This document shows, piece after piece, positions 45,958-52,175 of a stretch of 64,000 nt of DNA. The DNA is from a virus. The translations under genes were made by a program, and so were the position numbers. The notes beneath the pieces are model-generated. The model searched no databases. It saw only the letters and a program-made list of their open reading frames with translations, and had not been told where the DNA came from. The DNA is taken from positions 46,199 to 110,198 of IMG/VR virus record IMGVR_UViG_3300025437_000010; one strand, written 5' to 3'. The first letter of the stretch is position 1. Every line of letters begins with the position of its first letter.

Positions 45958-47043
45958 ATGACTGATACCAGAGACCTATACAGACTTATCCGCAGCATGG
46001 AAGAAAACCATGAGAGTGATACTATTCAGCTTCATGACCGTGTTGATATTGAACTCAATGAAAATTTTGTCATTGAAACGGGAGTAGTGGGCTTTACAGA
46101 AGATGGAATCATTCTTCATCTAGATGAAGACGCTGCTGAGTTTCTTGGTTTCCATGGTATTTTGAATGAATCAGAAAATGTTGATGAATACATGAAAATG
46201 GGTGCAGACTCCGATGCATCATCTGCCGGTTCATACATGATGGGTGAAGACAGTAATGACAGTCATCCTGCAGAAGGCGCTATTCGTTGGAGAATTCTTC
46301 GTCAGCACCCAGAATTAGTTGGTAAGTATGGTCCGGTAAGAATTATGGCAGCAATTGAAGACGTAGCACATGAGGTGGGTGACGTTGAAGAAATTGGAAG
46401 TTCAGATGTTAGTGGTTGGGTGAAAGAAGTTGTTCATGCCCTTGAATCTGGTAACTATGATCATTTAGACTCCGATGCTGATAACGATGAACTTAATGAA
46501 ATTAAAAAACTTGCTCATGGAAAAAATGAAGAAGAGTTGGAAGAAGGCTGGAAGACTTGGGCACTCGGTGGTGCTGCAGCAATTGCAGCAATGCTTGGCA
46601 TTAGTCACATGGAATATGAAAATGCTATTAAATCTGATCCGCAGTTAGCTAAACTCAATTCGTATTTGGAACGTGCAATTAAAAGCGGCGACGAATATAA
46701 AATCAAAGAACTAAAAGATCGTCTACAAAAAACATATGATCATTATTCAACCACTGGCGATGAAATTCGTGACGAAACCGGAAAACCTGTTGATCCCATG
46801 TATGAAGCAGAGTATCAAGGACGTAAAGTTACGCTTAATAAGCCAATGGCAGGTGATGTCGCCAAAAGTAAAGTCTATGTTAAAAAGCCAAACGGTAAAG
46901 TAGTAAAGGTCAATTTTGGCGATCCAAATATGCGTATAAAGAAAAATAGCCCAGGTCATCGTAAATCATTCAGAGCAAGACATCACTGTGAAAATCCTGG
47001 ACCTAAATGGAAAGCGCGCTATTGGTCATGCCGTGCTTGGTAA
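45958..47043 (+). CDS. Probable virion/head protein with basic Cys-containing tail
   Basis: A 361-residue protein. The first 250 residues are strongly acidic and helical (LDEDAAEFLGFHG, HESDTIQLHD) and include WKTWALGGAAAIAAMLGISH, a short hydrophobic helix. The C-terminal 80 residues are basic and end FGDPNMRIKKNSPGHRKSFR…HCENPGPKWKARYWSCRAW. I recall similar tails in structural or internal proteins of T4-like cyanophages. Behind a late motif, it is likely a head component. Confidence 0.62.
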   Translation: MTDTRDLYRLIRSMEENHESDTIQLHDRVDIELNENFVIETGVVGFTEDGIILHLDEDAAEFLGFHGILNESENVDEYMKMGADSDASSAGSYMMGEDSNDSHPAEGAIRWRILRQHPELVGKYGPVRIMAAIEDVAHEVGDVEEIGSSDVSGWVKEVVHALESGNYDHLDSDADNDELNEIKKLAHGKNEEELEEGWKTWALGGAAAIAAMLGISHMEYENAIKSDPQLAKLNSYLERAIKSGDEYKIKELKDRLQKTYDHYSTTGDEIRDETGKPVDPMYEAEYQGRKVTLNKPMAGDVAKSKVYVKKPNGKVVKVNFGDPNMRIKKNSPGHRKSFRARHHCENPGPKWKARYWSCRAW

Positions 47044-48063: not shown

Positions 48064-48096
48064 AGATATATTTCAAAACACATTTGTGCATGCTTG

Positions 48097-48104
48097 AATA
48101 AATA
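48097..48104 (+). promoter_or_regulatory. Late promoter motif (AATAAATA) next to the SOD start
   Basis: The motif ends four bases before ATG 48109. The predicted +1 lies at or within a base of the start codon, again suggesting a leaderless late mRNA. The longer frame beginning at TTG 48094 would start inside the promoter and is unlikely. Confidence 0.5.
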
Positions 48105-48108
48105 CAGT

Positions 48109-48669
48109 ATGCGCGAAATAATAAACCTTTTGGAGGCAAAATCAAAGCCTCAAGACATTGAAATCATCCCACTTAACTTCACTGAACGTGAAGTTAATCC
48201 TGTTATGGGTAAAGATACGCTTGATCTTCACTATAATAAGTTAGCAAAAGGATATGCACAACGCTACAATGATGGTGAAGGTGATCCTGACTTTAACTAT
48301 GCTGGTGCATTCCTGCATAATATGTGGTTTCCACAATTTAGAGAAGTCAGAGAAAACAACAAACCAAATGGACCAATGTATACCTTTATAAATAAGCACT
48401 TTGGTAATTTTGATAAATTCAAAAATGATTTTCTTGAAGAAGCAATGAAGGTTCAGGGGTCAGGCTGGGTATATCTTGCCTATGACGGCAAAATTAAAAC
48501 AATCAAAAACCATGAAGTCCGAGACGATATACTGCTTCTTGTTGACTGGTGGGAACACGCATTTTTATTAGATTATGGGTCAGATAAGAAGAAATATCTC
48601 AAAGAACTTTGGAAGATTATCAACTGGAATGTGATGTCAACAAGGCTTGGAAAGTCTTGGAGTTCATAA
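48109..48669 (+). CDS. Fe/Mn superoxide dismutase with CTS-like leader
   Basis: A 186-residue SOD. All four metal ligands can be placed: His in LDLHYNKLAKGY, His in GAFLHNMWF, and Asp and His in LVDWWEHAFLLDY; GYAQRY keeps the active-site Tyr. QGSGWVYLAYDGK matches the GSGW segment of the family. The usual HH pair of the first helix is replaced by LA. The first ten residues, MREIINLLEA, precede the normal SOD start and resemble a capsid-targeting peptide with a cut after LLE. A packaged SOD could blunt an oxidative burst at infection. Confidence 0.85.
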   Translation: MREIINLLEAKSKPQDIEIIPLNFTEREVNPVMGKDTLDLHYNKLAKGYAQRYNDGEGDPDFNYAGAFLHNMWFPQFREVRENNKPNGPMYTFINKHFGNFDKFKNDFLEEAMKVQGSGWVYLAYDGKIKTIKNHEVRDDILLLVDWWEHAFLLDYGSDKKKYLKELWKIINWNVMSTRLGKSWSS

Positions 48670-48672
48670 ACA

Positions 48673-50010
48673 ATGAGAGCATCCGACTTTGAAATCCACA
48701 ACTACAAAAAGCTGGACAAAATCCTTCTCAAATTGTGTGAGATGGTCATAGAGGAACACCATGATAATCCCGAGATGGATGGTCTTGTTGGTGCAGCCGT
48801 CCTTGATCCAAAAAACAACATCGTCACTGGCATAAGCACTAAATCAGATGACAAGTGGATTCATGCTGAACGTGAAGCCTTAAATAAATATGAAGCCAAA
48901 TATGGCAAAGTTCCAGAAGGTAGCATTATTGTTACCACATTAAGCCCATGCAATGATACTATGCATGATAGATATAGTGAAAGTTGCACTGATCTAATTA
49001 ATGCGAGTCCTGTTAAAAAAGTATACTGTGGATACACTGATCCAACACAAACTAAAAATCAACGTAAATTTACACAGTTAGAAACTGGAAACAGAAAAAT
49101 CAGGGAAATTTGTATGAGGATTTCAGAAATATTTTTGAAAAACAAAAATGACTTTATTAAAGAATCGCCAGAGCTTGATGAAATGGCGTTACAGCAGTTT
49201 ACTCCGTTAGGTGACTTTGAAAAGCCGGGACCATTCAGAGGCGTTGATAAGCGTTTAGTTCCTCATCCAAAAAATCAATTGAAAGCTGTTAAGTTTTTTG
49301 AGAAAACTCCTTATGATTTCAGACTATTCTTTAGTAATATTCCCGGAACTGGTAAATATGCTGAAATTGGCTCAGTAAGCCCCGAACAGCTAAAGAAAAT
49401 GTTTGGCGACCAAGCGCAACCAATCTTAGATGGGAGTGTTGATGCTATCACTGTGGTGTTTGTAGGTAACAGTGGTGATGCGAAAGTAATGATGACACCA
49501 TGGATTATGGCACATAGATTCGGGCATGCTGTTCAGGCAGGAAGCAGAAATAATAGAAACTGGAACGTTTGGACTGAAGCGGAAAAGCACTTCTTTAGTT
49601 CCGTTAATAACATGCTTGAACAATATTATGGAAAACTTCGTAACAAAAATCTTGATTTTGCAAACCGCTCAGCAGTTAAGTGGGACATGACACCAGAATA
49701 TAATGCCTTGTTTAACGCAATTGGCACTCAACGTAGCAGTCGGACTGGCCAAATTCGTCGTCCATATGAATTCCTGTATGAATTGTTTGCTCAGTATTTA
49801 GGGACCGGACAAGTAACACTTAATCCACTACCAACTAATTTGGGATACGGTCGCCAAAATTGGGGGAATCCAAGCAAATATCTAAATCTTAAGCCAGAAT
49901 ATCGTGACGATAGCGATAGGACAGAGGCTACTTCAGTATTGGCGAGGGATATGGAATATATGTTTGATGATGTCTTGTCAAATTCTGTTGGCAAAATTTT
50001 TGTGATGTGA
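48673..50010 (+). CDS. Fusion of a cytidine-deaminase-like and a zincin-like domain
   Basis: A 445-residue protein starting MRASDFEI, similar to the leaders nearby. Residues 10-160 are deaminase-like: KWIHAEREALNK gives HAE, TTLSPCNDTMHDRYSESC gives the Cys pair. A linker (KESPELDE, about 171-178) ends in an LxE site, and the rest includes WIMAHRFGHAVQ (HxxxH-type zincin-like) and YEFLYELFAQYLG. The two halves may be separated by the prohead protease. Function is unknown; deaminase plus putative protease suggests an effector. Confidence 0.65.
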   Translation: MRASDFEIHNYKKLDKILLKLCEMVIEEHHDNPEMDGLVGAAVLDPKNNIVTGISTKSDDKWIHAEREALNKYEAKYGKVPEGSIIVTTLSPCNDTMHDRYSESCTDLINASPVKKVYCGYTDPTQTKNQRKFTQLETGNRKIREICMRISEIFLKNKNDFIKESPELDEMALQQFTPLGDFEKPGPFRGVDKRLVPHPKNQLKAVKFFEKTPYDFRLFFSNIPGTGKYAEIGSVSPEQLKKMFGDQAQPILDGSVDAITVVFVGNSGDAKVMMTPWIMAHRFGHAVQAGSRNNRNWNVWTEAEKHFFSSVNNMLEQYYGKLRNKNLDFANRSAVKWDMTPEYNALFNAIGTQRSSRTGQIRRPYEFLYELFAQYLGTGQVTLNPLPTNLGYGRQNWGNPSKYLNLKPEYRDDSDRTEATSVLARDMEYMFDDVLSNSVGKIFVM

Positions 50011-50043: not shown

Positions 50044-50454
50044 GTGAGAGCACACGAATTCATAACTGAATCATTTGATCCAGATGATAGAGAAAATGGT
50101 TTACAGTTGGCAAGGCGTCCACTTCCGCATACTTATATTATCCCCGAGTTAACTAACCAAGATTTCTATAAAATTTATAGATTTGGTTTAAGTATTGCTG
50201 CTGTCAGAGGAGATGGTGGCAGAGAAGATGGGGTTCAAAATCTCAAATATCAAGAACCATTTGAAGCAGAAAGTGAATGGGGCGAACATGAAGTAGTATC
50301 CTCTTTTGATCCCGATATTGGTGCAGTAATAGACAAAGCACTAAAGTTAGTTCACTTAAAAGGTAAGAAATCAGTAAGCACTCCGGTCAGTCAAGAAGAA
50401 TCGGATGTTGAATATGTCTCTCCCATCAGACCGTTCAAGGGATACAAACGTTGA
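50044..50454 (+). CDS. Putative internal head protein with CTS-like leader MRAHEFITE
   Basis: A 136-residue protein. The leader MRAHEFITE closely resembles T4 MKTYQEFIAE; the expected cut is after ITE. The body (LPHTYIIPELTNQDFYKIYRFGLSIAAVRG) matches a phage family I recall of unknown function. GTG start. Confidence 0.65.
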   Translation: MRAHEFITESFDPDDRENGLQLARRPLPHTYIIPELTNQDFYKIYRFGLSIAAVRGDGGREDGVQNLKYQEPFEAESEWGEHEVVSSFDPDIGAVIDKALKLVHLKGKKSVSTPVSQEESDVEYVSPIRPFKGYKR

Positions 50455-52175
50455 GGGCAGCAGAATTCATAACCGAAGAGTCAATCAAACTCAGTGGCTT
50501 TGGGCCTTCAGAGAAGACTAAAGAATGGGTTGTTAAGGTCTATGAAAAGTTTCCTGAAAGTCCCCTCAGTCGTAGTAATCGTCTGATGACTTTTGGTAAG
50601 GGCGATGACATGCAGATTGTGCAGTTTGAACTTACCCCTAAACAGGGAAACAAAGTAGAACTAAAATGGATTCAGGCAACTCCGCTGCGTTCTGGCGCGG
50701 GCTCAAAGGCGATGAAGATATTGCAGAATTTAGCACAACAAGATGATATTACACTTACGCTGTTCCCTTGGGATAAAGGTGCAGTATCACAAGCCAAGCT
50801 GATCAAGTTTTACAAAAAACACGGATTCCATCACATCGGTAAATCCAAAAATATGCACTGGGAACCCGTTAATGAAGTGCAGACAATTTCCCACAGTAAA
50901 GATGATGACAAGTTTTGGCAAGAACAAATGCAAAATAAATTCAAGTCGCTCAGTGATGCTGGAAAACTTAGTGAAGCGGGATCGTTGGGAAATTTAAATC
51001 TTTTGGTTGGTCCATTTGGGTATAGTGATGCATATTTCTTTATGGATGGTGATAAGCCAGTTGGGTTGGTAATGGTATCCAAAAAACATGCCCCAGAATA
51101 TAGAACCGTTACTATGTTTTATTTAAATTCTGAATATAGAAGACAGGGGCTTGCTATGGCATTTTATAAGATGCTATTAAGTCAATATAATCTCATGTCA
51201 GATAAAATACAATCTGAGGCGATGCAGGAGGTATGGAAAAAACTCGCGGCGATACCCGGCTATAGCATGAAGGAAGTCGGTGAACGATATCTCATCACTA
51301 AGGATACTGAAAATACACAGCAACTTGATGAGAGTCTAAGCAGAATCGTATATCACTATACCAACATATATGCTGCTTCAAATATTCTTGCAACTGGAAA
51401 CTTTGAACTGAGCAGTGCATTGGGCAGCATTGAACAACAATATATGCCAAAAGGATATCACTACTTTTTAAGCACTACCCGAACTTCAAAAGGTGGATAT
51501 CATGATTACGTTGGTTCATCTGCTGTTATGTTTGTGTTAGATGGTAATTATTATAACAGCAAATATCCATCAAAGCCAGTAGACTATTGGCAAAACCGCG
51601 ATCCAGCAAAATCTCATCATAGAAGACATGAGGCAGAAGATAGGTTGTTTAGCAAAGAACCATCTATTCCTATTAATGGCGTTACTGCTATTCATGTGTT
51701 TATCAATGATGATGCAGAACCAAATACTAAGGCACATGCAAGAAAAACTCTATTAGAAGCAAAAAAGCGTAATATTCCCGCTTACTATTATAATGATCTA
51801 TCTGCTTGGAGAAATCTTGATACATCCAAAACATCTCAAGTTAACGCACTTACTGGACAACAATCGTTTAGTAGATCATTCAGTAGACACCGTGGTTGGC
51901 TTATTCCTTGGCTTGAAGTAATGCAGGTTACAGATCGGTCTCAGCTAAGTTCAAAAGCCAAAGATATTATTCGTAATCTTGATAGCAATTACTACCAAAA
52001 AGAAACGACGCAAGGATTGGCAAATGATTTATCCAACGCCAGAAAACCAAGTTCCGGACCTGACAGAAAAAATGCAATCAAGATAATCAATTATATGAAG
52101 CAACACAAATTGTCTAATATCGCAGAGTTTGTTAATGCCATGGCTGAAAAATGGAATGCGATCAATAAATCCTAA
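50451..52175 (+). CDS. GNAT-GNAT-ART-like fusion with CTS-like leader MRAAEFITE
   Basis: A 574-residue protein. After the leader, residues 25-140 form a GNAT-like unit (ATPLRSGAGSKAMKILQNLA, LIKFYKKHGFHHIG). Residues 150-280 form a second one (GLVMVSKKHAPEYRTVTMFY, EYRRQGLAMAFYKMLLS with the acetyl-CoA loop). QQLDE (about residue 297-301) separates them from a C-terminal domain starting IVYHYTNIYAASNILATG, which resembles HYT-type ADP-ribosyltransferases. T4 Alt is a packaged ADP-ribosyltransferase with a CTS, so this may be its functional counterpart. TTG 50451 overlaps the previous stop. Confidence 0.66.
   Translation: MRAAEFITEESIKLSGFGPSEKTKEWVVKVYEKFPESPLSRSNRLMTFGKGDDMQIVQFELTPKQGNKVELKWIQATPLRSGAGSKAMKILQNLAQQDDITLTLFPWDKGAVSQAKLIKFYKKHGFHHIGKSKNMHWEPVNEVQTISHSKDDDKFWQEQMQNKFKSLSDAGKLSEAGSLGNLNLLVGPFGYSDAYFFMDGDKPVGLVMVSKKHAPEYRTVTMFYLNSEYRRQGLAMAFYKMLLSQYNLMSDKIQSEAMQEVWKKLAAIPGYSMKEVGERYLITKDTENTQQLDESLSRIVYHYTNIYAASNILATGNFELSSALGSIEQQYMPKGYHYFLSTTRTSKGGYHDYVGSSAVMFVLDGNYYNSKYPSKPVDYWQNRDPAKSHHRRHEAEDRLFSKEPSIPINGVTAIHVFINDDAEPNTKAHARKTLLEAKKRNIPAYYYNDLSAWRNLDTSKTSQVNALTGQQSFSRSFSRHRGWLIPWLEVMQVTDRSQLSSKAKDIIRNLDSNYYQKETTQGLANDLSNARKPSSGPDRKNAIKIINYMKQHKLSNIAEFVNAMAEKWNAINKS

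Follow-up and report, generated by a model that had tools for sequence, protein, structure and literature searches.

Several described systems come close to the locus analysed here, a stretch of 64,000 nucleotides (the window) that forms part of a 110-kb virus record in IMG/VR (G000; IMGVR_UViG_3300025437_000010, positions 46,199 to 110,198), and in particular to one of its genes, which encodes a 574-residue protein at positions 50451-52175. Alt of bacteriophage T4 is an ADP-ribosyltransferase (ART) of the R-S-E type and of the Alt/VIP2 clade, DarT, a bacterial toxin (DarTG) directed against phages, is a DNA-base ADP-ribosyltransferase, and AcrVA5 is an anti-CRISPR acetyltransferase. The internal proteins IPI, IPII and IPIII of T4 are single cargo units with a short N-terminal leader that ends in L/I-x-E. 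The T4 prohead protease gp21 cleaves after L/I-X-E, sites of this kind being processed in proteins of the prohead core, and for packaging the N-terminal ten residues of IPIII are enough (PMC9026906). Polyvalent proteins combine several conflict-type domains (GNAT, ART, kinase-like, nucleotidyltransferase) in one phage protein that is thought to be injected, and a GNAT adjoining an ART has already been described among them (Iyer et al. 2017, PMC5512222). Their processing has been attributed to built-in metallopeptidases or assemblin-like domains (PMC5512222).

The 574-residue protein shares with the T4 internal proteins a leader ending in the gp21 consensus, and its clade has gp20, gp21 and gp23, but it holds several enzyme modules per chain with [LIV]xE motifs between them. 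As a phage protein with two or more conflict-type domains it can also be counted among the polyvalent proteins. However, the ARTs of the latter belong to the H-Y-D (Tox-ART-HYD2) clade, outside which the present ART falls with its pattern H, S-T-x-R, E-x-E, and their processing has not been ascribed to gp21-type junction sites, as is proposed here. Injected multidomain phage proteins and T4 internal proteins are known already; what appears to be new is the presence of head-protease sites at the borders of effector modules. No description of gp21-type (prohead-protease) sites between injected effector modules was found in the literature searched, which consisted of open-access papers.

We propose that the 574-residue protein is probably a capsid-targeted effector polyprotein, which is packaged by means of its leader, matured by a gp21-type protease in the prohead and then injected. 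The N-terminal leader would carry the chain into the prohead core, where the protease would cut off the leader after FITE and sever the linkers at VNE142 and LDE294. Cleavage would free an AcrVA5-like acetyltransferase (GNAT-A), a second GNAT (GNAT-B), and an ART of DarT-type fold with a helical tail. These enzymes would stay beside the DNA inside the head and pass into the host at infection, so that host factors could be modified ahead of phage transcription: the GNATs may acetylate a host or defence protein, and the ART may use NAD+ to ADP-ribosylate nucleic acid or protein. Computation shows the modular make-up, the fold assignments for GNAT-A and the ART unit, the leader, the junction sites and their link to fusion, and a protease gene encoded by relatives. 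Motifs for the maturation protease of the phage itself recur at module borders among its relatives, which suggests that the enzymes are probably loaded as one chain, cut and injected.

The gene for this precursor (leader, GNAT-A, GNAT-B, DarT-fold ART, helical tail), delimited by its open reading frame (ORF), Pfam matches, an AlphaFold2 model and orthologues, lies on the plus strand, as do all window features given below. It opens with TTG, its start overlaps the stop codon of the upstream gene, and AAGGGA is found upstream. The same start residue is used in the orthologues, encoded by ATG in L006 and L008 and by GTG in L007, and an identical protein (100%) occurs on three further IMG/VR contigs; it is a genuine gene. 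A 360-kb relative (G001) has the gene neighbourhood in common with the window, with 79-92% protein identity for the 574-residue product, and possesses T4-type head genes, i.e. those for the portal (gp20; PF07230, 1.8e-101), the prohead protease (gp21; PF03420, 8e-28) and the capsid protein (gp23; PF07068, 1e-97); a gp22-like scaffold was assigned by position. A first-pass annotation had placed in this ORF two GNAT-like domains and a HYT-type domain behind a capsid-targeting-like leader, and took the whole for a multi-activity analogue of T4 Alt. The reading frame, its domains, the leader and the T4-like character of the close relative are borne out by the results described here; the analogy to Alt and the idea of a single multi-activity protein fare less well.

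Processing is suggested by the module borders. The GNAT-A/GNAT-B junction, VNE/V (residues 140-142, positions 50868-50876; slashes mark predicted cuts), borders a linker that is modelled with low confidence (142-157), and homology of GNAT-A with its counterpart in L008 stops at residue 141. The GNAT-B/ART junction, QLDE/S (LDE being residues 292-294, positions 51324-51332), is homologous to the end of the leader in ARTs that occur solo, e.g. MRINEILTE/SLSR. In all 13 of 13 fused ARTs, [LI]xE directly precedes the ART at the point where solo ARTs end their leader. GNAT-A either stands solo or precedes 22 clusters of downstream modules, and 36 of the 37 distinct junctions following it carry [LIV]xE within 12 residues, compared to 3.9 expected from the remainder of the same modules and to a mean of 13.3 (maximum 23) when the junction composition is shuffled. 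The consensus around these sites is [LIV]-[DN]-E/[ASG]. Not one of 12 solo GNAT-A proteins has the motif. Its presence in fused modules and its absence from solo ones suggest that the precursor is cut into separate enzymes, and the annotated single multi-activity protein is therefore probably wrong.

Sequence comparison also indicates that relatives gain, lose and swap modules at or near [LIV]-x-E, close to the gp21 consensus. Of the ten points at which homology between chains breaks off, eight are no more than 3 residues away from such a motif, and all are no more than 8 residues away. In G001, a leader-bearing cell-wall hydrolase protein of 482 residues (G001:C1:328817-330265) contains only four [LIV]xE motifs, of which one is in the leader and the others are at borders between modules, and its 733-residue counterpart in G000 (G000:C1:35718-37919, equal to L013:15718-17916) carries an additional GNAT and another segment, gained precisely between sites of this kind. 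A kinase-like module, which in L051 stands alone with a leader of its own, follows the deaminase as part of a fused chain in L006.

The leader itself, MRAAEFITE (positions 50451-50477, with a gp21 cut predicted after E9), is like that of the T4 internal proteins, being an N-terminal stretch of about ten residues that ends in L/I-x-E. In G000 and G001 together, this pattern is present at 10 of 1272 gene starts versus 1 of 4470 internal positions (p 2e-6), the lone internal match being the module junction of the neighbouring deaminase-like gene. Other leader-bearing cargo includes a GNAT, a kinase-like protein (weak match to PF18762) and the cell-wall hydrolase fusion, and nearly all solo ARTs in IMG/VR open with such a leader, as in MRATEFLIE/RATD. 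A gp21-type prohead protease (family S77) was found in seven of eight ART-bearing contigs longer than 190 kb; the exception is Dickeya JA11, the ARTs of which are without a leader. L/I-x-E sites are also present in the capsid-protein propeptides of these phages.

AlphaFold2 confidence is high for GNAT-A (residues ~20-137) and for the ART unit (~295-574), low for GNAT-B, and very low for residues 1-15, 142-157 and 277-291, which correspond to the leader and both linkers. The best Foldseek match of the full-length model was AcrVA5 (TM-score, i.e. template-modelling score, on the target 0.73), and DarT came third. The signal of GNAT-A (residues 12-137, positions 50484-50861, motif RSGAGS) is weak from one sequence and clear at the family level: a profile of 31 members matches AcrVA5 with an E-value of 1.7e-7 (0.0043 and then 1.4e-5 in earlier profile steps), and the next PDB chain with 0.035. 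Thus, by profile and by fold, GNAT-A is specifically like AcrVA5 above other GNATs. AcrVA5 itself is shorter and solo (96 residues in PDB entry 6IUF), and the likeness shown here is one of sequence and fold, which does not by itself imply a Cas12a target. GNAT-A also occurs solo in L008 and L051. GNAT-B (approximately residues 151-285, positions 50901-51305, motif RRQGLA) was identified through Pfam (PF13673, 1.4e-6 at residues 195-249) and is missing from the relatives L006 and L007. The first-pass annotation would have been contradicted by folds without pockets for NAD or acetyl-CoA; this outcome was not observed for GNAT-A and the ART unit; the model of GNAT-B is poor.

The ART unit consists of a core (residues 297-460, positions 51339-51830) and a conserved C-terminal helical domain (residues 485-574, positions 51903-52172), modelled with high confidence, which like the [LIV]xE sites that separate the domains goes beyond what had been annotated. 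Modelled alone, the unit reaches a predicted local distance difference test score of 88.7 and a predicted TM-score of 0.84, and the HYT-type domain is recognized as an ART fold by model and Foldseek. The top seven PDB matches are all DarT chains (7OMW and others; E-values 5.5e-4 to 1.2e-2, probability 0.99-1.00), and the next match is not credible (E-value 0.58, probability 0.04). Among 33 ART relatives, residues H302, T304, S341, R344, E394, E396, R398 and N529, among others, are invariant, and the active-site pattern comprises a histidine in strand 1, an arginine after an LST motif (S-T-x-R) and E-x-E (E394-x-E396-x-R398). The NAD-site residues of DarT2 are H13, T15, R51 and E160 (PMC9967889), with which H302, T304, R344 and E394/E396 agree when compared by order along the chain only. 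According to the model, the ART unit is of the DarT type and not Alt-like. The unit differs from DarT in lacking Pfam-level similarity, in having the extra helical domain and no evident DarG/NADAR partner, and in being phage-borne and leader-bearing. None of the 33 members matches the Pfam family of DarT (PF14487, E<=1; also no match in G001) or ART-PolyVal, six of them weakly match DUF5768, and no named family for the unit was found in Pfam, PHROGs, NCBIfam or PADLOC. The scan of the sequence collection for ARTs used an alignment tighter than the most diverse one. No ART relative was confirmed on bacterial genome contigs, which were searched with one peptide pattern only.

Two proposals concern the target of the ART. 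The first, that this enzyme is DarT-like and attacks host DNA or RNA upon entry, is compatible with an injected effector polyprotein and is possible, though less likely than not. Its favourable points are the run of DarT chains ahead of any other solved structure and the invariant HxT, R and E, which follow the DarT order. Given a DarT-like fold, nucleic acid is a plausible substrate. On the other hand, the match to DarT is not seen at the sequence level, the added helical domain could bind protein, and among the 33 related contigs NADAR occurs in none and a macrodomain in only two. Self-protection by reversal is therefore not evident, and the lack of reversal enzymes together with the helical domain leaves room for protein substrates.

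The second proposal, that the ART is a functional analogue of T4 Alt and, once injected, modifies the RNA polymerase of the host or other proteins, is more doubtful. In both cases an ART is encoded by a T4-like phage and is likely to be delivered from the head, and ARTs in virion proteins are believed to have proteins of the host as substrates (PMC5512222). However, the strand-1 histidine, the DarT-like fold and the attached GNAT modules are all unlike the R-S-E enzyme Alt, and no Alt-type structure was found among the credible matches. As a candidate for the structural class, a T4 Alt-type ART was rejected, since the active-site pattern differs and DarT is the only credible fold neighbour.

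It is rather unlikely that, after packaging and removal of the leader, the three domains stay joined as an injected multidomain (polyvalent) protein in which the LxE junctions are relics of fusion. Polyvalent proteins have so far been treated largely as multidomain chains (PMC5512222), and homology of the ART junction with the leader end of solo ARTs is in line with a relic. Against this, P3 and P1 are conserved while P4, P2 and P1' vary, and the sites that follow GNAT-A stand before modules of 22 different clusters and at a distance that varies, which the relic of a single fusion leaves unexplained; moreover, comparable sites in T4 prohead core proteins are cut (PMC9026906). That the protein is an intracellular multidomain enzyme with a merely leader-like N-terminus is very improbable. 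In favour of this reading, packaging is itself deduced, and the region just downstream holds long, repetitive ORFs without Pfam match instead of recognizable head genes; against it, the leader is enriched at gene starts and shared by unrelated cargo, and it co-occurs with S77 and is missing from the Dickeya ARTs.

A number of points weigh against the effector polyprotein that we favour. Its packaging, cleavage and injection, the activity of its enzymes and their targets are inferred. At the junctions after GNAT-A, P3 is a valine in 15 of 36 sites, VNE142 included, which is outside the strict L/I consensus of T4, and some [LI]xE motifs fall within modules (175, 436 and 559). The binomial p of 1e-34 for 36 out of 37 junctions counts related sequences as independent and should not be read at face value; the difference that separates fused from solo modules carries more weight. 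Also, the 110-kb contig of the window is a fragment without gp21, and the neighbouring deaminase-like protein starts with MRASDFEIHN, which is leader-like yet lacks [LI]xE. The DarT matches have modest Foldseek E-values (5.5e-4 to 1.2e-2) and target-normalized TM-scores of 0.38-0.48. Finally, GNAT-B is poorly modelled, and remains so because no diverse relatives of it were found, IMG/VR yielding identical copies only and phage records none.

For a general system of virion-matured effector polyproteins in giant T4-like phages, the case is evenly balanced. Such a system would use one leader on chains of up to ~1,000 residues, cut by the head protease at [LIV]xE, with modules recombining at these sites, and its cargo would range from GNATs and the DarT-fold ART to kinase-like, deaminase, NMNAT-like, superoxide dismutase and cell-wall hydrolase modules. 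If correct, this would account for the loading of many different enzymes into one head of a large T4-like phage by means of a single targeting signal, and [LIV]xE at module borders would become a readable rule by which injected effectors, together with their mature termini, could be predicted from phage genomes that lack annotation. An injected phage effector would then have the fold of a toxin with which bacteria counter phages, and the relatives of DarT and AcrVA5 that phages carry and probably inject would allow direct tests of early take-over of host and defence.

The genes around the precursor include further candidates for cargo. Directly before it, a gene at 50044-50454 encodes an unassigned product of 136 residues with the leader VRAHEFITE/S. 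The deaminase-like neighbour (48673-50010) combines a cytidine-deaminase-like domain, assigned by Pfam, with a C-terminal module, which comparison with L006 and L007 shows to be replaced or displaced there; its junction FIKE/SPELDE/M contains two sites (49156-49164 and 49174-49182). The ORFs just 3' of the precursor gene are long, repetitive and without Pfam match. Upstream of the deaminase-like gene, 48094-48669 encodes an Fe/Mn superoxide dismutase (Sod_Fe_C, PF02777, 5.6e-25) with a possible leader, MNKYSMREIINLLE/A, noted from its sequence only. A second superoxide dismutase in apparent virion cargo is a full Cu/Zn domain (PF00080, 2.3e-45) in a chain of 1140 residues (L097:266-3685), beside NMNAT-like and ART modules.

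Separate observations concern related chains. The ART-containing chains of L094, L097 and L120 begin with NMNAT-like or cytidylyltransferase-like modules (in L120 as a sequence motif only), which may mean that enzymes for making NAD and for consuming it are co-delivered. ART genes occur in tandem pairs in Alishewanella, Dickeya and Salmonella phages (L035:2971-4811, L036:3004-4766 and L039:2998-4683). The leader-bearing kinase-like protein of L051 (2276-3001) weakly resembles the BREX kinase PglW (E-value 3e-4). The first ORF of L111, open at its 5' end, consists of short modules with repeats of GV[NESA]EG between them, and looks like a polyprotein with V-x-E/G junctions.
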